NCBI GenBank assembly: GCA_014843695.1
Contig: CM026387.1
Span: 73,195,749-73,259,748, forward strand
From: Archivesica marissinica
Lineage: Eukaryota > Mollusca > Bivalvia > Venerida > Vesicomyidae
Reading direction: 5' to 3'
DNA: 64,000 nucleotides
The translations under genes were made by a program, and so were the position numbers. Of the stretch, positions 16,343-63,650 are shown one piece after another; the stretch's first letter is position 1; every line of letters begins with the position of its first letter. The notes under the pieces were generated by a model. That model was not told the origin of the DNA. It did not search any database and saw nothing but the letters and a program-made list of their open reading frames with translations.

Positions 16343-17532
16343 TACTGAAGGAAATAAGTTTAGCAAGTTGGTATAAAATGCTAAAATTAGTTAAATTTAT
16401 ACTAAATTGAACAAAATCTCAAGTTCTTAAATCTTCAATCATTTAATTCTAATTTAAATTCAACAATTTCATTGAAAAAATACTTTATTTCCTCTAATCC
16501 GTCACGCTGAAAATGGTAGGGTTCAAAGAGATAAGTCACAAATGTGTCAATATCGAGTATGTCCTCCGTTAACAGCAAGTACAGACGCACATCGTCGTCT
16601 CATACTGTTGATAAGCTTCCTTACAACTTGTAGAGGGATTCGGCGCCATTCTTCATGCAACGCTCGCTCAAGGTCACGTACGTATATGACGTCATTACGT
16701 TCTCTTATCTTACGTCCTAGGTGGTCCCACATGTGTTCAATGGGCGAAAAGTCTGGCGATTTGGATGGCCAGGGAAGAACGGCGATATTGTTACGCCTGA
16801 GAACATCCTGGGTGTGCCTGGCAGTGTGTGGGCGGGCGTTATCCTGTTGATCCTGTCGATGACGTTGCGTTAACGGTATCCCAACGTGAGGCTGGCGTGC
16901 ATGAAGTCTGGCAGCGCGAAGTCTATTGCGGAGGGTCCTGTTACAAACTCTTGTGCCGGTTGCATTCCTGACATGATCAGCTAACCTGCGACTAGACATA
17001 AACCTATTTCGTCTTGACGTCACAACAATATAACGGTCTTCCGCCAACGTCGTTTTTCTTGGTCGGCCCGAACGTGGCATATCTTTTACATCCCCTGTTC
17101 GTTGATATCTAGTGTTTAGACAACTAATAGTCGATTCATGAACGTTAAATTGTCGTGCAACTTCCCTTGCCGTCACACCAGCATTTAACATGCCAATAGC
17201 CATTTGACGTCGACCTAACGTCATTTCTGGAGCACGCCCCATTGAATAATTTCCAAATTTTAAAGCGGTTAATTTGGTTATGGTATACAAATGACAAGAT
17301 TGTGTTTGTTTTAAGATTCCACACAGGTAAGATTTCGTGCTGCACGTGCTCTCCATGATTTAACAATAATTAGCTGTTTTGACGTAGCAAAACCACTGAT
17401 GCGGAAACTTGTACTGGGGATCTATTGTGTAGGGCCATACGGTCATAATTAACACATTACATGTATATATACCACTGTACATATAAACCTATCGATACCC
17501 TGAAAAACTTGCTAAACTTATTTCTCTGAGTA
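16343..17532 (-). mobile_element. Tc1-like DNA transposon, internally deleted
   Basis: A 1,190-bp element with inverted ends (GAAATAAGTTTAGCAAGTT on the left, its complement on the right at about 17505-17523) and TA on both sides. It carries the transposase remnant at 16547-17356. Confidence 0.85.
16547..17356 (-). pseudogene. Tc1/mariner transposase, catalytic core deleted
   Basis: A 269-codon open frame. The N-terminal helix-turn-helix region (GRRQMAIGMLNAGVTAREVA, RSGRPRKTT) and the C-terminal DDE part (QDNARPHTARHTQDVL with the second Asp; SPDFSPIEHMWD with the Glu) are clear. They are joined directly at HRQDQQDNARPH. The stretch that normally holds the first catalytic Asp (about 110 residues) is absent, yet the frame stays open. 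An enzyme lacking one of three metal-binding residues should be inactive, so this copy is non-autonomous. The true start is probably the Met of MGRAPEMTLGRRQ rather than the first ATG. Confidence 0.9.
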
Positions 17533-18611: not shown

Positions 18612-18805
18612 TAATATTCCTCGCCCTGAGCTGGGGGTTATGTTATGTTATATTTCGGGTTTTACGCCTGCATCAGCACCATTTTGGGCTATATCGCCGG
18701 CGGGCAGTTTACCTTTCCTGGGCAGGCTCCAGCGGTTAACCAGTACTTGGGTGCACCAACCTCCGTAAGAAACTGCCAACTTTTTCATAGCTGGAGGTAT
18801 CATTA
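18612..18805 (-). mobile_element. SINE family E, copy 4 (3' part)
   Basis: Reverse complement of the tail seen at 23105-23270: TACGCCTGCATCAGCACCAT and CCAGCGGTTAACCAGTACTT. The tRNA-like head is absent. Confidence 0.85.
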
Positions 18806-21375: not shown

Positions 21376-24300
21376 GTAAGTTATCATTGTACAATCAGGG
21401 ATCATTCTAGAGGGCAATGTGGGACCTAGGGACCCTGACTTCGCCCTCTGAGGCCCCACTTGTCCCTTAAAAATATTAGTTTTTACAATTTTCATACAAA
21501 ATTTTGTCCAGTAAGATAACTGGCCCATTAAAAAGCACTGCTTCTATTCATATAACCTATTTAATGGTCATACTGTGTATTTTAACCTCATTTTATTAAA
21601 TAACAACATTCAAAGGCACAATCGTGCGCTTTCTCACTTCTCCCCAAACTTCTGACCTATAATGAGCTGTGATGAATATTTATGTTCAGCCTATACGAAT
21701 GTTTGTTCTCATTTTGTAGCTGAGTCGTCTTGCAGAGACTTTTATGTTCAGCATATACGAATGTTTGTTCTCATATTTAGCTGAGTCGTCTTGCAGAGAC
21801 TTTTATGTTCAGCCTATACGAATGTTTGTTCTCATTTTTAGCTGAGTCGTCTTGCAGAGACTTATGTTCAGCGTATACGAATGTTTGTTCTCATTTTTAG
21901 CTGAGTTGTCTTGCAGAGACTTTTATGTTCAGCCTATACGAATGTTTGTTCTCATTTTTAGCTGAGTCGTCTTGCAGAGACTTTTATGTTCAGCGTATAT
22001 GAATGTTTGTTCTCATTTGTAGCTGAGTTGTCTTGCAGAGACTTTTATGTTCAGCCTATACGAATGTTTGTTCTCATTTTTAGCTGAGTCGTCTTGCAGA
22101 GACTTTTATGTTCAGCGTATACGAATGTTTGTTCTCATTTTTAGCTGAGTCGTCTTGCAGAGACTTATGTTCAGCGTATACGAATGTTTGTTCTCATTTT
22201 TAGCTGAGTCGTCTTGCAGAGACTTTTATGTTCAGCATATACGAATGTTTGTTCTCATTTTGTAGCTGAGTCGTCTTGCAGAGACTTATGTTCAGCGTAT
22301 ACGAATGTTTGTTCTCATTTTGTAGCCGAGTCGTCTTGCAGAGACTTTTATGTTCAGCATATATAAATGTTTGTTCTCATTTTTAGCTGAGTCGTCTTGC
22401 AGAGACGGGTGAAGAGTACATTGTGTTCACTGCTAGTACCGATGAAGGGACGTGTGGACATATGGGATCTGTTAAAGGAGAGGGCTTCGTGAAATCCTCT
22501 AGTCTTCAAAATGTCAAACAACAGTTCCTTAACTTCTGTACAGGTTTGTTTTTAATATTTGTTGCACAAAGCGTTTTATTTGAATAAAATCAGTGAATTC
22601 ATGTTCATATTTATCGTCGCTACCGGTTGCCCATATGAGCGACGCCTCCTGAAGAGATTAGTTATTTTGGATTTATGGAGGATAGTGCAATGATACAGAC
22701 AGAGACCCATTACAGCGTCTCCTCTGGTTCTTTTACATGCACAGTGTAAAGCACCGACATGAGACCTCTTTAAAGTCCCATCTGAAAGACTGTTAATTTT
22801 ATTAGGGTCAGACAGGGGATCGAACCTGCGATCCCTGGATTACCAGTCCAACATTTAGCCACTGGACTACAGAACAGTGCGATGGTGCGTGTCCATGTTT
22901 CATGCAGATTGACCCAGTAACACTGGAGTAATAAATGTCCTTTCACCTGTTGCACGCTACCTGATAACTATTGTAGCCCTTCTGTGTATATGAAAGCTAT
23001 TCTTCTTAAAAAGTCAGCCTCCGTGGTCGAGTGGTTGTCGCTGACTTGTGTACCACTGTAACTTATCATCACCGATGGTCACGGGTTCGAGTCCCGCTCA
23101 GGCCGTGTCTCATTTATATGAAAAAGTTGGCAATTTCTTACAGAGGTTTGTGCACCCAAGTACTGGTTAACCGCTGGAGCCTGTCCAGGAAAGGTGTTGT
23201 TAGGTAAACTGCCCGCCGGCGATACAGCCCAAAATGGTGCTGATGCAGGCGTAAAACCCGAACTAACAAACAAAACAAACAAATTCTTCTTAATAGTAAT
23301 AATTTTTCATCATTGACATTTGAATATTTGCAGGTAAAGAAAAATTCCCACCACCTCTTTCGAATGTCACGTCAACTCCGAAGCCAAACAGGCGCAAATC
23401 CACCCCACGACACAAATTTCAACAGGGTGCTGTCGGTGTACCCGCCAATGATCTTAGATTAGAAGTTCCCAACATGTGTCAGTCTACAAAGGAAGACGTA
23501 GCTTCTTCTGGTGACTTGAATGTTTCAGCATGTGCCTTAGACCTTAGTGATAAAAGTGGCGGATATGCATACACGTTGGAAGGTAAGGACGACATACCGA
23601 GATACAACGGTAATGTGTCTCAGGGCAGCTTTGGTTTTCAGTATGAAGATGTTGGGAGTAAGTTGGAAATCCCTGATGTGAAGCTGCCGCAATTTAAGTG
23701 GCAAGATGAGAAATTGCATCCGGTTATCCAAGATCAACCTGAGAGTGGAATTGAAAATGTTACTGCTGAAAAGCCGAAAGAGATGCGTGTAGATGACATG
23801 TACGAGAACAAAAACTTGGCACTCGACTGTATGACATTTGGAGATTTGAGTCTGTTTGGTGGGGTTAGTAATGTGGCAAGGGGTAGACAGCAGCAGGGTT
23901 TTCAAAATAAGAGGAAAGCGAGAAAAGGGCTGGTAATGAAACAAAGGAATGAACTGAAGCAAGAAGTAGTTGAGCCGTCCATCAATTCTCTCGTACCAAA
24001 TGGAAATGAAAATATTTTGAAGTCAGATAGCGACAATCATATGACAAGCTCGCTTGCAGTTATTAAAGCGAATGAAATAGACTCGGCTGACACAGTTCAC
24101 AATCACGCAACTAAAACTGAAAGCTCAACCAGTCTTAGCGACATCACGGACATGAAAAGTGCTTTCGAAGAAATTGGAAATATGGCAAAGTGTTTGATCT
24201 GTAACAAGATTCTAGCCAATAAAAACAATCGTACATTCCATTGGCGCTCTCATGTAGGCGATAAAAGGTACACATGCGATATATGCCTGAAAGCTTTCAC

Positions 24301-24703
24301 ACACCCATCTAACATGCGATCACATCGAAAAATACACACCGACGAAAAACCATTTCCGTGCGATCTCTGCGAGCGGCGGTTCCGACGTCGCGATTATTTG
24401 CTCCAGCATTTGGAACGCTTCCACTACAATCCTAAGCAAGCATCGGACAAAAGTCTGAATGAAAGTGAGAGCTTTATGGATCTCTCGGAAAACCAGTCTA
24501 TCTATAAGCTGGATTCATCTGAAAACCAGTCTTTCTGTAGACTGGATCCCCCTGAAAACCAATCTGCCTGTAGACTGGATCCCCCTGAAAACCAATCTGC
24601 CTGTAGACTGGATCCCCCTGAAAACGAAACTGCAAGTAAACTGGATCCCCCTGAAAACCAATCCTCAAGTATAGTGGAACCCTCTGACGATCAGTCCCTC
24701 TGA
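21316..24703 (+). CDS. C2H2 zinc-finger protein, three coding exons
   Basis: Exons 21316-21375, 22387-22543 and 23334-24703 join in frame to 528 codons. The start MEPGLTQAVRIVLKYEIQSL has good context (A at -3, G at +4). Residues 1-73 form a conserved-looking N-terminal segment (LAETGEEYIVFTAS, NVKQQFLNFCTGK). A long acidic middle follows, with a basic patch (QNKRKARKG). Three C2H2 fingers begin near residues 359, 387 and 415 (CLICNKI, CDICLKAF, CDLCERRF; the last ends HLERFH). The first linker is HVGDKRYTC, the second HTDEKPFPC, close to the classic TGEKPY linker. A C-terminal array of 11-residue repeats (PPENQSACRLD) follows. A nuclear DNA-binding role is likely; no ortholog is recognised. 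Introns hold a splice-site array (intron 1) and two SINEs (intron 2). Confidence 0.88.
21396..21668 (+). mobile_element. CAGGG MITE (family A), copy 2
   Basis: Starts CAGGGATCATTCTAGAGGGC. The right end is degraded (expected CTAGAATGAACCCTG). Sits in zinc-finger intron 1, 20 bp after the donor. Confidence 0.82.
21690..22386 (+). repeat. about 61-bp array repeating the 3' splice site, 11 copies before the real one
   Basis: Each unit holds TTTGTTCTCATTTTTAG then CTGAGTCGTCTTGCAGAGAC, that is, the polypyrimidine tract, the AG acceptor and the first 20 nt of coding exon 2. A spacer TTTTATGTTCAGCCTATACG follows. The last copy continues into the true exon at 22387. The units are 59-62 bp, mostly not multiples of three, so use of a single upstream acceptor would usually break the frame. 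Confidence 0.93.
22387..22543 (+). CDS. zinc-finger gene coding exon 2
   Basis: Acceptor CTCATTTTTAG|CTGAG, donor ACAG|GTTTGT, phase 1 at its end. Encodes LSRLAETGEEYIVFTAS through LNFCT. An alternative acceptor 16 nt inside the exon (TTGCAG|AGAC) would shift the frame. The 5' edge of this exon is the unit amplified in the upstream array. Confidence 0.82.
22606..22885 (-). mobile_element. SINE family C, copy 2
   Basis: Full-length reverse copy: ATATGAGCGACGCCTCCTGA at the tail end, GGGATCGAACCTGCGATCC in the head. Lies in zinc-finger intron 2. Confidence 0.88.
23018..23285 (+). mobile_element. SINE family E, copy 1 (full length)
   Basis: Head GCCTCCGTGGTCGAGTGGTT with B box GGGTTCGAGTCCC (Ser/Leu-tRNA-like); body GGCAATTTCTTACAGAGG, GTACTGGTTAACCGCTGGAG, AAAATGGTGCTGATGCAGGC; A-rich tail of AAACAAAC units. 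Lies in intron 2, about 50 bp before exon 3. Confidence 0.88.
23334..24703 (+). CDS. zinc-finger gene coding exon 3 (terminal)
   Basis: Acceptor ATATTTGCAG|GTAAAG. Encodes the middle region, all three fingers and the 11-residue repeats, ending TGA at 24701. Confidence 0.88.
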
Positions 24704-42998: not shown

Positions 42999-43998
42999 NN
43001 NNNNNNNNNNNNNNNNNNNNNNNNNNNNNNNNNNNNNNNNNNNNNNNNNNNNNNNNNNNNNNNNNNNNNNNNNNNNNNNNNNNNNNNNNNNNNNNNNNNN
43101 NNNNNNNNNNNNNNNNNNNNNNNNNNNNNNNNNNNNNNNNNNNNNNNNNNNNNNNNNNNNNNNNNNNNNNNNNNNNNNNNNNNNNNNNNNNNNNNNNNNN
43201 NNNNNNNNNNNNNNNNNNNNNNNNNNNNNNNNNNNNNNNNNNNNNNNNNNNNNNNNNNNNNNNNNNNNNNNNNNNNNNNNNNNNNNNNNNNNNNNNNNNN
43301 NNNNNNNNNNNNNNNNNNNNNNNNNNNNNNNNNNNNNNNNNNNNNNNNNNNNNNNNNNNNNNNNNNNNNNNNNNNNNNNNNNNNNNNNNNNNNNNNNNNN
43401 NNNNNNNNNNNNNNNNNNNNNNNNNNNNNNNNNNNNNNNNNNNNNNNNNNNNNNNNNNNNNNNNNNNNNNNNNNNNNNNNNNNNNNNNNNNNNNNNNNNN
43501 NNNNNNNNNNNNNNNNNNNNNNNNNNNNNNNNNNNNNNNNNNNNNNNNNNNNNNNNNNNNNNNNNNNNNNNNNNNNNNNNNNNNNNNNNNNNNNNNNNNN
43601 NNNNNNNNNNNNNNNNNNNNNNNNNNNNNNNNNNNNNNNNNNNNNNNNNNNNNNNNNNNNNNNNNNNNNNNNNNNNNNNNNNNNNNNNNNNNNNNNNNNN
43701 NNNNNNNNNNNNNNNNNNNNNNNNNNNNNNNNNNNNNNNNNNNNNNNNNNNNNNNNNNNNNNNNNNNNNNNNNNNNNNNNNNNNNNNNNNNNNNNNNNNN
43801 NNNNNNNNNNNNNNNNNNNNNNNNNNNNNNNNNNNNNNNNNNNNNNNNNNNNNNNNNNNNNNNNNNNNNNNNNNNNNNNNNNNNNNNNNNNNNNNNNNNN
43901 NNNNNNNNNNNNNNNNNNNNNNNNNNNNNNNNNNNNNNNNNNNNNNNNNNNNNNNNNNNNNNNNNNNNNNNNNNNNNNNNNNNNNNNNNNNNNNNNNN
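42999..43998. other. assembly gap of 1,000 N
   Basis: A run of exactly 1,000 undetermined bases with a different array on each side. The round length suggests a placeholder, so the true distance is unknown. Open frames reported across it are meaningless. Confidence 0.99.
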
Positions 43999-46900
43999 CG
44001 CTGTAGGTTCGACTCTCTTGCCTGCCCCTCACCGCTGTACCCTCACCGCTGTAGGTTCGACTCTCCTGCCGGCCCCTCGCCGCTGTATGTTCCACTCTCC
44101 TGCCTGCCCCTCACCGCTGTAGGTTCTACTCTCCTGCCTGCCCCTCACCGCTGTAGGTTCGACTCTCCTGCCTGCCCCTCACCGCTGTAGGTTCGACTCT
44201 CCTGCCTGCCCCTCACCGCTGTAGGTTCGACTCTCCTGCCGGCCCCTCACCGCTGTAGGTTCGACTCTCCTGTCTGCCCCCTCACCGCTGTAGGTTCGAC
44301 TCTCCTGTCTGCCCCTCACCGCTGTAGGTTCGACTCTCCTGCCTGTCCCTCACCGCTGTAGGTTCGACTCTCCTGCCTGCCTCTCACCGCTGTACCCTCA
44401 CCGCTGTAGGTTCGACTCTCCTGCCGGCCCCTCACCGCTGTAGGTTCGACTCTCCTGCCGGCCCCTCACCGCTGTATGTTCGACTCTCCTGCCGGCCCCT
44501 CACCGCTGTAGGTTCGACTCTCCTGCCAGCCCCTCACCGCTGTAGGTTCCACTCTCCTGCCTGCCCCTCACAGCTGTAGGTTCCACTCTCCTGCCTGCCC
44601 CTCACAGCTGTAGGTTCGACTTTCCTGCCGGCCCCTCACCGCTGTAGATTCGACTCTCCTGCCTGCCCCTCACCGCTGTAGGTTCGAGTCTCCTGCCTGT
44701 CCCTCATTGCTGTAAGGTTCGAGTCACCGCTGTACACCCTCACCGCTGTAGGTTCGACTCTCCTGCCGGCCCCTCACCGCTGTAGGTTCGACTCTCCTGC
44801 CTGCCCCTCACCGCTCGACTCTCCTGCCGGCCCCTCACCGCTGTAGGTTCGACTCTCCTGCCGGCCCCTCACCGCTGTAGGTTCGACTCTCCTGCCTGCC
44901 CCTCACCGCTGTAGCACCCCCCCCCCCCCCCTCACCGCTGTAGTTCGACTCTCCTGCCTGCCCCTCACCGCTGTAGGTTCGACTCTCCTGCCTGCCCTCA
45001 CCGCTGTAGGTTCGACTCTCCTGCCTGCCCCTCACCGCTGTAGGTTCGACTCTCTGCCTGCCCCTCACCGCTGTAGGTTCGACTGCCTGCCCCCTCACCG
45101 CTGTAGGTTCGACTCTCCTGCCGCCCCTCACCGCTGTAGGTTCGACTCTCCTGCCGGCCCCTCACCGCTGTAGGTTCGACTCTCCACTCTCCCCCCTCAC
45201 CGCTGTAGGTTCGCTGCCTGCCCTCACCGCTGTAGGTTCGACTCTCCTCCTGCCCCTCACCGCTGTACACCCCTCACCGCTGTAGGTTCGACCCCCCCCC
45301 CACCCCCCCACCCACACCCCCCCACCCACACCCCCCCACTCTCTGCCTGCCCCCACACCCCCCCCCCCACCCACACCCCACCCCACCCACACCCCCCCCC
45401 CACACCCAACCCCCACCGCTGTAGGTTCGACTCTCCTGCCTGCCCCTCACCGCTGTACCCTCACCGCTGTAGGTTCGACTCTCCTGCCGGCCCCTCGCCG
45501 CTGTATGTTCCACTCTCCTGCCTGCCCCTCACCGCTGTAGGTTCTACTCTCCTGCCTGCCCCTCACCGCTGTAGGTTCGACTCTCCTGCCTGCCCCTCAC
45601 CGCTGTAGGTTCGACTCTCCTGCCTGCCCCTCACCGCTGTAGGTTCGACTCTCCTGCCGCCCCTCACCGCTGTAGGTTCGACTCTCCTGTCTGCCCCCTC
45701 ACCGCTGTAGGTTCGACTCTCCTGTCTGCCCCTCACCGCTGTAGGTTCGACTCTCCTGCCTGCCCTCACCGCTGTAGGTTCGACTCTCCTGCCTGCCTCT
45801 CACCGCTGTACCCTCACCGCTGTAGGTTCGACTCTCCTGCCGGCCCTCACCGCTGTAGGTTCGACTCTCCTGCCGGCCCCTCACCGCTGTATGTTCGACT
45901 CTCCTCTCACCGCTGTAGGTTCGACTCTCCTGCCACCCTCACCGCTGTAGTTCCACTCTCCTGCCTTCTGTAATGCCTGCCCTCAGCTGTAGGTTCGACC
46001 CTGCCGCCCCTCACCGCTGTAGGTTCTACTCTCCTGCCGGCCCCTCACCGCTGTAGGTTCGACTCACCCTCACCGCTGTAGGTTCGACTCTCCTGACCGC
46101 TGTAGGTGCCCCTCCCGCTGTAGGTTCACTGCGCTGTATCAGCCCCTCACCGCTGTAGCTGTCTGCCCCTCACCGCTGTAGGTTCGACTCTCCTGCCTGC
46201 CCCTCCCGCTGTAGGTTCGACCTGCCTGTAGCTGTTCGATCACCTCGACTCTCCTGCCTGCCCGCTGTAGGTTCAGCTGTAGGTTCGACTCCTCGCTGTA
46301 GGTTCGCCTGTGCCCCTCACCGCTGTAGGTGCCCCCCTCACCGCGACTCGCCTGGCCCCTCACCGCTGTAGGTTCGTGCCTGCCCTGTCACCCTCACCGC
46401 TGTAGGTTCGAACCCCTCGACTCTCCTGCCTCTCACCGCTGTAGGTTACTCTCCTGCCTGCCCCTCACCGCTGTAGGTTCGACTCTCCTGCCTGCCTTTC
46501 ACCGCTGTAGGTTCGACTCTCCTGTCTGCCCCCTCACCGCTGTAGGTTCGACTCTCCTGCCTGCCCCTCACCGCTGTAGGTTCGACTCTCCTGCCTGCCC
46601 CTCACCGCTGTAGGATCGACTCTCCTGCCTGTCACCGCTGGATTCGACTCTCCTGCCTGCCCCTCACCGCTGTAGGTTCGAGTCTCCTGCCTGTCCCTCA
46701 CTGTAAGTTCGACTCTCCTGCCTGCTGTAGGTTCGGCATGCCCCTCACTGTAGTTCGACTCTCCTGCATGCCCCTCACCGCTGTAGGTTCGACTCTCCTG
46801 CCTGCCCCTCACCGCTGTAGTTCGACTCTCCTGCCCCTTCACAGCTGTAGGTTCTACTCTCCTGTCTACCCCTCACCGCTGTAGGTTCGACTCTCCTGCC

Positions 46901-55593: not shown

Positions 55594-55700
55594 TTACGCA
55601 CTAACAACACCGAGCAGTTTGAGAGCGAAGGTTACATTGATGACAAGCAGGATCAGAAGGCCAATATATCCAAATGCACCGTACTTCCGTCTCTCTGGAT
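55594..55700 (-). CDS. MGST3: MGST3-like terminal exon
   Basis: Acceptor TTATTATTTCAG|ATCC; 34 codons and TAA. A diverged duplicate of its first ~40 nt lies just upstream in the intron. Confidence 0.87.
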
Positions 55701-58700
55701 CTGAAATAATAACACGAGCCATCTCAATATATCCAAATGCACCGTACTTCTGTCTCTCTGGATCTTGTCAACTGCAGACTTACCTCCACTGTAATACCCC
55801 ACTACAAACTTACCAACACTGTAATACCCACTACAGACTTACCTCTGCTGTAATACTGCACTACAGAAATACCTCCACTGTAATACTGCACTACAGACTT
55901 ACCTCCACTGTAATACCCCACTACAAACTTACCTCCACTGTAATACCCACTACAGACTTACCTCCACTGTAATACCCACTACAGACTTACCTCCACTGTA
56001 ATACCCACTACAGACTTACCTCCACTGTAATACCCAACTGCAGACATACCTCCACTGCAATACCCACTACAGACTTACCTCCACTGTAATACCCACTACA
56101 GACTTCCCTCCACTGTAATACCCAACTGCAGACTTACCTCCACTGTAATACCCACTACAGACTTACCTCCACTGTAATACCCACTACAGACTTCCCTCCA
56201 CTGTAATACCCCACTACAAATTTACCTCCACTGTAATACCCACTACAGACTTCCCTCCACTGTAATACCCCACTACAAATTTACCTCCACTGTAATACCC
56301 ACTACAGACTTACCTCCACTGTAATACCCACTACAGACTTACCTCCACTGTAATACCCACTACAGACTTACCTCCACTGTAATACACACTACAGACTTAC
56401 ATCCACTGTAATACCCCACTACAGACTTCCCTCTACTGTAATACCCACTACAGACATACCAACACTGTAATACCCACTACAGACTTACCTCCACTGTAAT
56501 ACTGCACTACAGACTTACCTCTGCTGTAATACTGCACTACAGACTTACCTCTGCTGTAATACCCCACTACAGACATACCTCCACTATAATACCCACTACA
56601 GACTTACCTCCATTGTAATACCCACTACAGACTTACCTCCACTGTAATACCCCACTACAGACTTACCTCCACTGTAATACCTACTACAGACTTACCTCCA
56701 CTATAATACCCACTACAGACTTACCAACACTGTAATACCCACTACAGACTTACCTCTGCTGTAATACTGCACTACAGACTTACCAACACTGTAATACCCC
56801 ACTACAGACTTACCAACACTGTAATACCCACTACAGACTTACCTCCGCCGTAATATTGCACTACAGACTTACCTCCACTGTAATACCCACTACAGACTTA
56901 CCTCCACTGTAATACCCAACTGCAGACTTACCTCCACTGTAATACCCACTACAGACTTACCTCCACTGTAATACCCCACTACAGACTTACCTCCACTGTA
57001 ATACTCAACTGCAGACTTACCTCCACTGTAATACCCACTACAGACTTACCTCCACTGTAATACCCAACTGCATACTTACCTCCACTGTAATACCCACTAC
57101 AGACTTACCTCCACTGTAATACCCCACTACAGACATACCTCCACTGTAATACCCAACTGCAGACTTACCTCCACTGTAATACCAACTACAGACTTACCTC
57201 CACTGTAATACCCCACTACAGACTTACCAACACTGTAATACCCACTACAGAATTACCAACACTGTAATACCCACTACAGACTTACCTATGCTGTAATACT
57301 GCACTACAGACATACTTCGCCTGTAATACCCCACTACAGACATACCTCTGCTGTAATACCCCACTACAGACTTACCTCCACTGTAATACCCACTACAGAC
57401 ATACCGCCACTGTAATACTGCACTACAGACTTACCTCCACTGTAATACCCCACTACAGACTTACCTCCACTGTAATACCCTCTACAGACTTACCACCACT
57501 GTAATATCCCACTACAGACTTACCTCCACTGTAATATCCACTACAGACTTACCTCCACTGTAATACCCACTACAGATTTACCAACAATGTAATACCCCAC
57601 TACAGACTTACCTCCACTGTAATACCCCACTACAGACTTACCTCCACTGTAATACTGCACTACAGACTTACCTCCACTGTAATACCCTCTACAGACTTAC
57701 CACCACTGTAATACCCCACTACAGACTTACCTCCACTGTAATACTGCACTACAGACGTACCTCCACTGTAATACCCAACTACGGACTTACCTCCACTGTA
57801 ATACCCAACTACGGACTTACCTCCACTGTAATATACCACTACAGACATACCTCCACTGAAATATCCCACTACAGACTTACCTCCACTGAAATATCCCACT
57901 ACAGACTTACCACCACTGAAATATCCCACTACAAACTTACCTCTGCTGTAATACTGCACTACAGACTTACCTCCACTGTAATACTGTGCCTACAGACTTA
58001 CATCCACTGTAATACCCACTACAGACTTACCTCCACTGAACTATCCCACCACAGACTTACCTCCACTGTAATATCCCACTACAGACTTACCTCCACTGAA
58101 ATATCCCAATACAGACTTACCTCCACTGAAATATCCCACTACAGACTTACGTCTGCTGTAATACTGCACTACAGACTTACCTCCACTGTAATACTGTGCC
58201 TACAGAGTTACCTCCACTGTAATATCCCACTACAGACATATCTCCACTGAAATATCCCACTACAGACTTATCTCTGCTGTACTACTGCACTACAGACTTA
58301 CCTCCACTGTAATACTGTGCCTACAGACTTACCTCCACTGAAATATCCCACTACAGACTTACCTCCACTGAAATATCCCACTACAGACTTACCTCCACTG
58401 AAAGATATAACTACAGACTTACCTCCACTGTAATATCCCACTACAGACTTACCTCCACTGAAATATCCCACTACAGACTTACCTCTGCTGTAATACTGCA
58501 CTACAGACTTACCTCCACTGTAATATCCCACTACAGACATATCTCCACTGAAATATCTCACTACAGACTTACCTCCACTGAAATATCCCACTACAGACTT
58601 ACCTCCACTGAAATATCCCACTACAGACTTACCTCTGCTGTAATACTGCACTACAAACTTACCTCCACTGTAATACTGTGCCGATAGACTTACATCCACT

Positions 58701-61700
58701 GTAATACCCACTACAGACTTACCTCCACTGAACTATCCCACTACAGACTTACCTCCACTGAAATATCCCACTACAGACTTACCTCCACTGAAATATCCCA
58801 TTACAGACTTACCTCCACTGAAATATCCCACTACAGAATTACCTCCACTGAACTATCCCACTACAGACTTACCTCCACTGATATATCCCACTACAGACTT
58901 ACCTCCACTGTAATATCCCACTACAGACATACCTCCACTGTAATATCCCACTACAGACTTACCTCCACTGTAATATCCCACTACAGACTTACCTCCACTG
59001 AAATATCCCACTACAGACTTACCTCCACTGTAATATCCCACTACAGACTTACCTCCACTGTAATACCCACTACAGACTTACCTCCACTGTAATATCCAAC
59101 TGCAGACTTACCTCCACTGTAATACCCACTACATACTTACCTCCACTGTAATATCCAACTATGGACTTACCTCCACTGAAATATCCCAATATAGACTTAC
59201 CTCCACTGTAATATCTCACTACAGACTTACCTCCACTGTAATACCCACTACAGACTTACCTCCACTGTAATATCCAACTGCAGACTTACCTCCACTGTAA
59301 TACCCACTACAGACTTACCTCCACTGTAATATCCAACTACGGACTTACCTCCACTGAAATATCCCACTACAGACTTACCTCCACTGTAATATCCAACTAC
59401 AGACTTACCTCCACTGAAATATCCCACTACAGACTTACCTCCACTGTAATATCCCACTACAGACTTACCTCCACTGAACTATCCCACTACAGACTTACCT
59501 CCACTGTAATATCCCACTACAGACTTACCTCCACTGAAATATCCCACTACAGACTTACCTCCACTGTAATATCCCACTACAGACTTACCTCCACTGTAAT
59601 ATCCCACTACAGACATACCGCCACTGTAATACCCACTACAGACTTACCTCCACTGTAATACCCACTACAGACATACCGCCACTGTAATACCCACTACAGA
59701 CTTACCTCTGCTGTAATACCCACTAGACATACCTCCACTGTAATACTGCACTACAGACTTACCTCCACTGTAATACCCCACTACAGACTTACCTCCACTG
59801 TAATACCCTCTACAGACTTACCTCCACTGAAATATCCCACTACAGATTTACCTCCACTGTAATATCCCACTACAGACATACCGCCACTGTAATACCCACT
59901 ACAGACTTACCTCCACTGTAATACCCACTACAGACATACCGCCACTGTAATACCCACTACAGACTTACCTCTGCTGTAATACCCACTACAGACATACCTC
60001 CACTGTAATACTGCACTGCAGACTTACCTCCACTGTAATACCCCACTACAGACTTACCTCCACTGTAATATCCCACTACAGACTTACCTCCACTGTAATA
60101 TCCAACTGCATAAACCACTCTGGAAACAATCCAGGTAACACCGCATAATGCGCTCACTATCTGAAATAAAGGAAACAGACAATTACTTACCTTAATGCAA
60201 AATATGATACATGTATTAACCCTTTCAACCCCACAGGCCTCTAAATAGGCTTATGAAAAGTGTAGATCCAGATGAGCCGGCTCGTGACGAGCCGTCTCAT
60301 CAGGATCTGCACTTTTTTGCCAGTAATAATTATTACTATTTTTAGATAAAATTACACATTTTGATAAATGAACTGGTCCAAAGGTAATTTTCTTATTAAT
60401 TTATTGGTCTGAAAATATCACGCACCAGTCCATGTCAGTTACTTGGGGTTGAATGGGTTAAAGCAGCATTACATCGTAATAAGGGATGTTTTGGGTAAAA
60501 TATAAATACTAATGTGTGTGTGTTTACAAAAATCAAAATAGTCGCTCAGAAACGATAAAATTCCAATAAATTTAAACCGTCATAAACGCGAATTTGTTTA
60601 TCAACACACTAAATGTAAACACACACAGCGCGCATGCGTGAAACAACAGAGGATGTAGAAAACAACGTATATATTTTGAACATGAAATACTATCTATCTA
60701 TCTTCCTCTAATGTCGAACCCCTAGCGGGGATGTAGAAATGTCCCTAAAGACAGAGGTATGAATCAACATATCAAGTAATTTAATTAAAAAAGACAACGT
60801 GGGACAAATGGGGACGATGGATTCCAAATGCAAACAAGTGCGGACGATGCGTTCTGGTTGTAAACAAGTGCGTGACCGATCGACTCGGAAAGTCCTACTT
60901 TCGGTTTCGAGTTTGTTTTATCGCAAAAAAAACACTGTTTACCAAATGAACATAAGCATACAAAGTATAATGTTAGAATGTGTAGCAGCATTGCTACCCA
61001 TACGTAAAAATTTTTCAAATATATTTTATTTCATACGATGTAATGCTGCTTTAATATGCATACATTGTAACATATAGGGACATATGAAACATGTATTAAT
61101 ATGCATACATTGTAACATATAGGGACATATGAAACATGTATTAATATGCATACATTGTAACATATAGGGACATATGAAACATGTATTATTATGCATATAT
61201 TGTAACATATAGGGAAATATGAAACATGTATTAATATGCATATATTGTAACATATAGGGACATATGAAACATGTATTAATATGCATACATTGTAACATAT
61301 AGGGACATATGAAACATGTATTAATATGCATACATTGTAACATATAGGGAAATGTGAAACATGTATTAATATGCATATATTGTAACATATAGGGAAATGT
61401 GAAACATGTATTAATATGCATACATTGTAACATATAGGGAAATGTGAAACATGTATTAATATGCATATATTGTAACATATAGGGAAATGTGAAACATGTA
61501 TTAATATGCATATATTGTAACATATAGGGAAATGTGAAACATGTATTAATATGCATATATTGTAACATATAGGGAAATGTGAAACATGTATTAATATGTA
61601 TATATTGTAACATATAGGGGAAAATGAAACATGTATTAATATGCATATATTGTAACATATATGGAAATATGAAACATGTATTAATATGCATATATTGTAA

Positions 61701-63650
61701 CATATAGGGACATATGAAACATGTATTAATATGCATATATTGCAACATATAGGGACATATGAAACTTGTATTAATATGCATATATTGTAACATATAGGAA
61801 AATGTGAAACATGTATTAGTATGCATATATTGTAACATATAGGGAAATGTGAAACATGTATTAATATGCATACATTGTAACATATAGGGACATATGAAAC
61901 ATGTATTAATATGCATACATTGTAACATATAGGGACATATGAAACATGTATTAATATGCATACATTGTAACATATAGGGACATATGAAACATGTATTAAT
62001 ATGCATACATTGTAACATATAGGGACATATGAAACATGTATTAATATGCATACATTGTAACATATAGGGACATATGAAACATGTATTAATATGCATACAT
62101 TGTAACATATAGGGAAATGTGAAACATGTATTAATATGCATACATTACAACATATAGGGAAATGTGAAACATGTATTAATATGCATACATTGTAACATAT
62201 AGGGACATATGAAACATGTATTAATATTAGGGATGGCAATGAATATTCGAATATTTGCTCGAACGTCCGATTATCCGAATACTATTGCAGTATTCGAATA
62301 TTCGGAAAAAAATATATATATGCAAAATTTAAATAAACTGTCATAAAATCAGATACGTCGTTGTTGTTTTCTTTTCAATATATCATAAAACCGTACAAAA
62401 TTACAATACAAAAGAAATCGCCCGAGGAGGTGTGAATAAACCATGTTGTGATCGCAACCACGGCAGGTGTTAATTGACACTTGCCATGAAATTGGATAAT
62501 TACAGTAGGTTCTAAGGTATTGTTTGAATTTTATTGTTTAATTTATAAACATGTTAATCTATATTACTGATTGAACCAATTCAATATTGCAAACTAATTT
62601 GTTTGCAAATTGTTGCTGCTGGGTAAATATCGGGGGTCTTTGATATATGATTTTAAAATTGTTTTGCCGAGAAAATACCTTTGAAATATTACTGAAAGTT
62701 TGCAGCAACATTCACGCCCATTTGTATTTAATATTTTTGATTAACTGCTCAATATTACCCAAAAGTACTATTTAAAGTATGATTTTTTTATGGTGTCCTC
62801 ATTAAATGTTAATGCTTAATTTATGATATTTCGTCAAAAACTATGCATCAAACCAGCATTAGAATTACAAACAGTGACAAAGAACGTAGCCAAGTGCAGG
62901 AAACTAATAGGACATTTCAAACATTACAGACGGATCTGTAGTCCAGTGGTAACACGCTGGACTGATAATCCAGGGATCGCAGGTTCGATCCCCCGTCTGA
63001 CCCTAATAAAATTAACAGTCTTTCAGATGGGATGTTAAACCGAGGTCTCGTGTCGGTGCTTTACACTGTGCACATAAAAGAACCAGAGGAGACTCTGGAA
63101 TGGGTCTCTGTCTGTATCATGCACTATCCTCCAAAATCTAAAATGACTAATCTCTTCAGGAGGCATCGCTCATATGGGCAAACCGGTAGCGACGATAAAT
63201 AAACGTAAAAAAAACAACAACAAAAACACTCTACAACCGTGACAGCTGAGATGAGAAAACGTCAAAAGCTTCTCGAAGAGCCTGAGCATTCACTGATTCA
63301 GGATGTCCCAACTCGTTGGAATTCGACACAACTCATGCTCGAACGACTAGTGGAACAACGTCATGTAATCACGGATATAATGTTGGATACCAGAATCACT
63401 AAGAAATCCGACAGTGTGTTGTTGTTAAAGGATCATGAATGGGAGATTGTCAGTGATTTATGTATTAATATGCATATATTTAACATATAGGGAAATGTGA
63501 AACATGTATTAGTATGCATATATTGTAACATATAGGGACTGACAATTATTATTGGAACGTAATCAAGCTTACGACAACTGTTTTATACTTACCGGATACA
63601 GAACTCCACCCAGCATCAACAGAACCAGAAACAGTGGATAACCTTCTAAT
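55594..63650 (-). CDS. MGST3: microsomal glutathione S-transferase 3-like, 3' three exons
   Basis: MGST3 is a four-helix membrane enzyme of the MAPEG family that conjugates glutathione and reduces lipid peroxides at the ER or outer mitochondrial membrane. Exons 63650-63593, 60160-60088 and 55700-55594 join in frame. The first encodes LEGYPLFLVLLMLGGVLYP (human LEVYPPFLFFLAVGGVYHP), the second TWIVSRVVYAVGYYSG (human AWIVGRVLYAYGYYTG), the third DPERRKYGAFGYIGLL and a last hydrophobic helix ending LLGVVSA and TAA. The 5' exons with the first helix and the glutathione-binding FNCIQRAHQN-type motif lie beyond 64000. The last intron (55701-60087) is almost wholly a 29/30-bp array built from this gene's own donor site; the intron before it (60161-63592) holds MITEs, a 45-bp array and a hAT fragment. 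Identification rests on three matching blocks in order. Confidence 0.88.
55725..55765 (-). pseudogene. duplicate of the start of the MGST3 last exon
   Basis: Repeats the first ~38 nt of the terminal exon (TATATCCAAATGCACCGTAC on the plus strand) with a single base change. The spacing is about 62 bp, so a segment spanning the acceptor was tandemly duplicated. The copy has no good acceptor of its own. Confidence 0.85.
55780..60087 (-). repeat. 29/30-bp array of MGST3 5' splice sites, about 145 copies
   Basis: On the minus strand each unit reads GGATATTACAGTGGAG then GTAAGTCTGTAGTG, that is, the last 16 nt of the penultimate exon, the donor and the first intron bases. Most units keep GTAAGT; common variants give GTATGT; a few (GGAAGT) have lost it. 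30-bp units keep the exon frame and 29-bp units shift it. Minus-strand frames with a ten-residue period (GYYSGGKSVV) follow from this. Confidence 0.95.
60088..60160 (-). CDS. MGST3: MGST3-like penultimate exon
   Basis: Acceptor TTTATTTCAG|ATAG; 24 codons ending AVGYYSG plus one base, donor GGAG|GTAAGT. Its last bases are the repeat unit of the adjoining array, so the exon end is chosen by homology: joining the first donor to the last exon gives GYYSGDPERRK, which matches the family. Confidence 0.85.
60220..60457. mobile_element. TTAA-flanked MITE (family J), copy 3
   Basis: CCCTTTCAACCCCACAGGCC to TTGGGGTTGAATGGG; TTAA at 60216-60219 and 60458-60461. The second TTAA is also the left border of the next MITE. 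Confidence 0.9.
60462..61050. mobile_element. TTAA-flanked MITE (family I), copy 3
   Basis: Inverted ends AGCAGCATTACATCGTA and TACGATGTAATGCTGCT; TTAA at 60458-60461 and 61051-61054; 589 bp. Frames at 60785-61077 are inside it. Confidence 0.92.
61055..62228. repeat. 45-bp minisatellite in an MGST3 intron, about 26 copies
   Basis: Unit TAATATGCATACATTGTAAC then ATATAGGGACATATGAAACA and TGTAT. Two more copies follow at 63458-63537, after the hAT insertion. 45 bp is 15 codons, giving two overlapping minus-strand frames of about 400 codons with no biological meaning. Confidence 0.96.
62932..63210 (+). mobile_element. SINE family C, copy 5 (full length)
   Basis: Head GGATCTGTAGTCCAGTGGTA with anticodon-position GAT (Ile-like), B box GGTTCGATCCC; body TCGTGTCGGTGCTTTACACT; tail ACCGGTAGCGACGATAAAT and an A-rich end. 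The best-preserved head in the window. Confidence 0.92.
63239..63457 (+). pseudogene. hAT/ZBED transposase fragment
   Basis: An open stretch of about 72 codons with VPTRWNSTQLMLERL and RITKKSDSVLLLKDHEWE, the conserved block of hAT transposases related to ZBED proteins. The N-terminal BED finger and the dimerisation domain are missing, and the frame runs into the 45-bp array. Non-functional. Confidence 0.88.
63458..63537. repeat. 45-bp minisatellite, second block
   Basis: TATGTATTAATATGCATAT and GGGAAATGTGAAACATGTAT, the same unit as 61055-62228. Confidence 0.9.
63593..63650 (-). CDS. MGST3: MGST3-like internal exon
   Basis: Acceptor TTTCCTTACAG|A and donor CCG|GTAAGT; 19 whole codons, LEGYPLFLVLLMLGGVLYP, after one base of a split codon. 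Confidence 0.87.

Follow-up and report, generated by a model that had tools for sequence, protein, structure and literature searches.

The human gene IFI6 (6-16) reportedly carries a splice-donor minisatellite, said to have been described by Turri in 1995, with a 12-nt unit in about 26 copies, whereas the array considered here, in a mollusc, has a 29/30-bp unit in 145 copies. It lies in the last intron of an MGST3 gene of the clam Archivesica marissinica, within a 64,000-nucleotide stretch of contig CM026387.1 (GCA_014843695.1; C2:73195749-73259748), hereafter the window, from one assembly of 1,537 Mb in 2,808 contigs. It has long been asked how the spliceosome settles on one donor where identical ones lie side by side. 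According to passages of one report (PMC4526556), two downstream repeat units of IFI6 serve as donors and give three mRNAs; IFI6 is thus like MGST3 in that a minisatellite supplies several donors. Passages of a second report (PMC5954066) describe a 25-bp variable number tandem repeat (VNTR) in intron 18 of human ABCA7, the first two bases of which are the exon 18 donor, with 23.7 units in the reference and alleles of 315–9711 bp, up to ~388 units. Retention of one unit, at 2 ± 1% (the second of two values listed in order), leads to a premature stop and nonsense-mediated decay and is independent of VNTR size; with longer VNTRs, skipping of exon 19 rises 3.2- to 4.1-fold and expression falls. 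GYNGYN tandem donors, in passages of a third report (PMC1779574), likewise offer alternative donors a few bases apart with slight protein change, but comprise two adjoining sites and not an array.

As in ABCA7, tandem copies of a short unit at MGST3 run from the donor of an exon into the intron that follows. The ABCA7 unit, by the same passages, starts at the donor GT, holds no exon sequence and breaks the frame, whereas the MGST3 unit includes 23 exonic nt and the first spacings between its donors are in frame; splicing has been measured for ABCA7, whereas the MGST3 array is read here from genomic sequence. The MGST3 array is a member of the known kind represented by ABCA7 and IFI6, here in a mollusc, and extends a human architecture linked to disease (ABCA7) to an invertebrate. 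A preliminary description of the window held that no case with this many donors had been described; the ABCA7 VNTR is known and its alleles reach ~388 units (PMC5954066, in part), so that claim fails. Among literature titles and abstract openings we recognised no exon-end donor arrays beyond IFI6 and ABCA7, and no description of their recurrence across the exon ends of one genome; passages of a report on earthworm metallothionein intron minisatellites (PMC12783039) describe no donor array. We consider it probable that the MGST3 array is a neutral minisatellite that has grown over an exon end, with most splicing at donor 1 and a small leak to donors 2–4.

An array of splice donors fills the last MGST3 intron

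The gene is on the minus strand, and the intron between its last two exons, D and E (60087-55701), is 4,387 bp long, of which 4,317 bp (98%) is a 29/30-bp array. The features concerned are:

60088..60160, minus strand: exon D, penultimate, 73 nt, ending ...VVYAVGYYSG; acceptor TTTATTTCAG, phase-1 donor, phase fitting its neighbours, matched by homologues
55771..60110, minus strand: 29/30-bp minisatellite, unit GGATATTACAGTGGAG followed by GTAAGTCTGTAGTG; by Tandem Repeats Finder (TRF) and wrap-around alignment
55594..55700, minus strand: exon E, last (DPERRKYGAFGYIGLL...VVSA, then stop); acceptor GTTATTATTTCAG

TRF places the array at 55771-60107 (period 30, 146.1 copies, score 6300), and a wrap-around alignment over 60110-55771 resolves 145 full units, 93 of them of 30 bp, 46 of 29, 4 of 31 and 2 of 28. 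The unit consists of the end of exon D and the start of the intron, and runs on from the exon edge. Both the preliminary count of about 145 tandem copies filling the intron and the derivation of the unit from the true edge of an MGST3-like penultimate exon, with its donor and first intron bases, are borne out by the alignment and the gene model. The locus is thus a splice-donor minisatellite: a tandem array that starts at an exon donor and has the donor inside its unit. At the 146 donor positions the first two bases are GT in 139 cases, GG in 4 and AT in 3; GTAAGT accounts for 115 and GTATGT for 15, so that 130/146 keep one or the other, much as had been noted for almost every copy.

A 50-mer centred on this one edge sets it apart from the rest of the gene and shows that it is no product of chance. 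At the exon D donor it matches 143 other places in 70 kb of the locus, and 141 of these matches span the edge; of the nine MGST3 splice edges, six have no further match, the exon B donor has one, and the single one of the exon E acceptor does not span the edge itself. We found no dispersed copies of the unit, all 25 own-genome DNA matches (a lower bound, as common words were skipped) lying at the MGST3 locus. Higher-order repeats were also absent from the array, in that no run of at least 5 identical units with at least 3 types occurred at any lag. The heptamer TGCAGTT, which exon D carries directly 5' of the unit, also closes 8 of the 145 full units; we infer from this that the founder comprised 23 nt of exon together with 7 nt of intron. 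There are 74 distinct unit types among the 145. That diversity, together with an intact frame and splice sites and the presence of like arrays at independent loci (below), makes it very improbable that we are looking at an assembly artefact or a dead gene.

Donors 1–4 and the MGST3 product

Only the donors nearest the exon are compatible with an intact protein:

60082..60087, minus strand: donor 1, GAG/GTAAGT (GAG, then intron); yields the 144-aa family-typical protein
59992..60057, minus strand: donors 2–4, first bases 60057, 60027 and 59997; in frame, +10, +20 and +30 residues

Donors 1–4, at 60087, 60057, 60027 and 59997, are spaced by exactly 30 bp and are stop-free; donors 1–3 read GAG then GTAAGT, and donor 4 GAG then GTATGT. 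Donor 5 follows after 29 bp and breaks the frame, and 4/146 donors (1–4) give an intact C terminus, the remaining 142 giving none. The preliminary description had the first donors 30 bp apart, with donors 2 and 3 adding 10 and 20 residues before a later 29-bp unit breaks the frame; this holds, donor 4 (+30) also being in frame and donor 5 marking the break. Use of donor 2 would insert GKSVVGYYSG, donor 3 would add GKSVVGYYSG again, and donor 4 would further add GKSAVQYYSG. The predicted insertion point lies between GYYSG and DPERR, just before the nearly invariant R114, in what we take from family knowledge to be a short loop ahead of the last helix. The alignment with a solved MGST2 chain continues through this junction, and the match to LTC4S stops at position 108, just before it.

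The gene model was built from the window and adjoining sequence, as the gene extends beyond the window end; a human MGST3 sequence served as bait for most of the exons, and exon C was located by a motif. The upstream exons, with coordinates beyond the window given in extended numbering, are:

72158-72030 (extended), minus strand: exon 1, canonical sites
72436-72311 (extended), minus strand: possible alternative first exon
67405-67338 (extended), minus strand: exon B, canonical sites
63593..63650, minus strand: exon C (LEGYPLFLVLLMLGGVLYP)

The five coding exons have GT/AG sites and matching phases and encode 144 amino acids, of which residues 16-131 are spanned by the MAPEG domain (PF01124, Pfam, 3.7e-26). 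From 435 homologues found, 120 were listed and 12 of those chosen for alignment. The closest proteins among the matches listed, similar over their full length, come from two heterodont clams, Ruditapes philippinarum (77%) and Mactra antiquata (75%). Isoforms X1 and X2 of the Ruditapes protein correspond to the two alternative first exons of the A. marissinica gene. Compared with the 12 aligned homologues, the protein made from donor 1 has no insert; MGST3 of other bivalves is alike end to end, with no insert past GYY(S/T)G. A paralogue search with a 58-aa query gave E ≤ 1.7e-5 at the MGST3 locus only (the 11 remaining matches had E ≥ 0.79), and a MAPEG family search of the genome gave the MGST3 exon plus one weak place.

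At the other end of the array lies a separate, smaller duplication:

55723..55763, minus strand: 41 nt that partly duplicate the beginning of exon E; lies 63 bp upstream of the authentic start and lacks the pyrimidine tract of that exon

From this copy to the real exon the frame is open for 21 residues.

Arrays at other exon ends and the repeat background of the genome

The share of sequence taken up by tandem repeats is 49.5% in the window, 29.6% in the 60 kb that follow and 48.5% in 54 kb of randomly drawn sequence (18 pieces of 3 kb, one from each of C1-C18), and by this small sample the genome is exceptionally rich in minisatellites; passages of the literature checked give no published tandem-repeat share for bivalve genomes. 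Among 69 arrays (period ≥10, ≥3 copies), the MGST3 array has the strongest in-unit donor, as expected of an array born from a real one. Three occurrences of AGGTAAGT with gaps of 12-42 bp are found at 18,724 places, compared with 16,162 for the reversed pattern, counts that include overlapping places inside arrays and rest on a rough control; donor-rich arrays are therefore background in this genome.

Donor-edge duplication recurs within MGST3 itself, where the end of exon B and its donor are duplicated once (67 bp, copies 96-97% alike; L009:3240-3374, extended 67240-67374) and the second donor leads to an immediate stop. In the random sample, an exon that matches UBR5 structures (PDB chains, 6.6e-13; L040, C11:11000001) leads into an array of 54-bp units, whose 24 donors GAG/GTAAGA lie exactly 54 bp apart in one open frame to L040:1448; this array could instead be coding throughout. 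A further array, at C1:8078350 (L048), was the first listed by donor pattern and thus was picked by its donors. It begins at an exon-like edge, with an acceptor, a 155-nt open frame and GGAG/GTAAGT, and contains 68 AGGTAAGT in the part examined, mostly at 21- and 24-bp spacing; its donor 2 leads to an immediate stop. The peptide of this exon has no match in Pfam or PDB sequence searches, so its coding status rests on the open frame and splice signals.

As a test set chosen irrespective of arrays we used exons of the chaperonin family PF00118, with 57 matches and 32 donor edges in two batches (20 + 12). The first batch comprised rows 1-22 minus C19:19169516 (a long open frame) and C11:21761080 (a mirror copy), and the second 12 later rows hand-picked before their sequence was viewed; 25/57 rows lay outside the test. 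Edges were set by homology and best U1 pairing, with weak chosen donors at L092, L095, L107 and L109; L085 and L086 are one exon in two gene copies, and L087, L089 and L097 have stops within the match, as if it ran into the intron. At 4/32 donor edges (95% interval 3.5-29%) the 20 bases around the donor recur downstream at 20/20. These are:

L083: 43-44 bp units
L099: 76 bp units
L102: 76 bp units
L101: 31 bp units, starting at AG/GT, much like ABCA7; the scored donor is that of the second unit, and the exon edge is 31 bp upstream

The other 28 donor edges score 15/20 at best, and among 200 shuffles of each locus no score exceeds 16. At L093 and L107, arrays begin within 10 bp of the match end and do not repeat a donor. 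No such copy was seen at the 20 chaperonin acceptor edges of the first batch (4/32 versus 0/20, Fisher p = 0.15); on these small numbers, the lack of duplicated acceptors could arise because an upstream acceptor copy would meet the scanning spliceosome first. Half of the genome sample is array, so 4/32 is, if anything, fewer than blind scatter would give, and the donor-edge arrays that survive would be those that splicing tolerates. Chaperonin exons also occur twice, as a mirror image, over a 57-kb span at C11:21756032-21813196, which resembles an inverted gene duplication.

Of the eight donor-edge duplications (MGST3-D, MGST3-B, UBR5, C1, L083, L099, L101 and L102), units are open and in frame in two, MGST3-D for donors 1–4 and UBR5; among the seven besides MGST3-D, six break the frame or hit a stop at once, and UBR5 is in frame. 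Two in eight is about what chance predicts, which counts against the idea that protein length explains the class. A tentative generalisation, which we think less likely to be right than wrong, is that donor-site minisatellites are a regular occurrence at a noticeable fraction of exon ends in this clam lineage, tolerated through the surviving exon-proximal donor, with duplicated acceptors being harmful, and that the in-frame ones (MGST3 and UBR5) lead to protein lengths that vary among individuals. Sampling of the genome shows that what looked like a striking device of a single gene belongs in part to the background. The clam genome nevertheless appears to offer many natural tests of donor choice, at exon ends with 2 to 146 near-identical donors of varied spacing, strength and frame.

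Probable neutral growth and competing explanations

Under neutral growth, the final 23 nt of exon D and the 7 nt of intron next to them would have been duplicated in tandem as a 30-bp founder, and the array may then have grown by slippage or unequal exchange to 98% of the intron. Each unit is born with a donor, so duplication leaves a donor beside the exon and splicing at donor 1 would continue. Donor 1 would presumably dominate and yield the ancestral 144-aa MGST3; by analogy with ABCA7 and IFI6, a few percent of splicing may leak to donors 2–4, adding 10-30 residues before the last helix, and donors 5-146 would not yield an intact end. Of the options raised in the preliminary description, a neutral expansion tolerated by splicing is the best supported: the donor 1 product is typical of its family, the donor windows are unexceptional, about half of the random sample is repeat, and arrays recur at exon ends, with 6/7 of the other duplications frame-broken or stopped.

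Selection on the donors of the MGST3 array was considered and rejected. Counted by non-consensus letters, the donor hexamer ranks 4th of 30 six-column windows in fewest changes and the nine-column donor window only 10th of 30, which is no clear excess of conservation. Several observations nevertheless pull away from neutrality. The nine donor columns average 7.1 changes compared with 12.7 in the other 21, other windows being equally quiet; GT is lost in 0 of the first 52 donors and in 7 of the last 94, a post hoc comparison in which four of the seven losses are one repeated variant; and all of the first four donors are in frame. In UBR5 the donor columns are unchanged in 23 units and 24/24 donors share one open frame (11/54 nine-column windows are unchanged there, the donor's window among them). 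The use of donor 1, moreover, is something we infer from sequence.

One rival is a length-variable splice-choice device, in which donors 1–4 compete and MGST3 forms with 0, 10, 20 or 30 extra residues before R114 are under selection. In its favour, donors 1–4 are GAG-preceded GTAAGT or GTATGT and stay in frame free of stops, the U1 pairing energy of donor 1 is -10.7 kcal/mol (other MGST3 donors, -6.2 to -11.2), and IFI6 employs two downstream units as donors (PMC4526556, in part). Given the array's unit lengths, however, three 30-bp spacings in a row have P = 0.26, 2/8 donor-edge duplications in the genome are in frame and open, and 0/12 aligned homologues have an insert at the junction. We therefore regard a selected device as unlikely; what survives of this earlier suggestion is a possible leak, as donors 1–4 are open in frame, and nothing shows selection for it.

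A slightly smaller probability attaches to an effect through U1, in which more than 100 donors bind the U1 small nuclear ribonucleoprotein and alter the processing, retention or output of MGST3. In its favour, 139/146 positions have GT, 102/146 have GT together with U1 pairing that equals or exceeds that of donor 1, and in ABCA7 expression is lower and exon skipping more frequent with long alleles (PMC5954066, in part). Arrays bearing donors are, however, common in this genome (18,724 triple sites compared with 16,162 reversed), and the exon after the MGST3 array is the last, so that exon skipping of the ABCA7 type has no direct counterpart here. Neutral growth with donor 1 in main use thus remains the explanation that we prefer.

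Other features of the window

An assembly gap adjoins arrays in the window, and two open frames lie apart from MGST3:

~43000-44000: run of 1,000 N, assembly gap adjoining arrays
23324-24700, plus strand: C2H2 zinc-finger open frame (Pfam), with an in-frame 33-bp repeat at 24477-24663
16550-17359, minus strand: 270-aa open frame with the look, by eye, of a Tc1-type transposase

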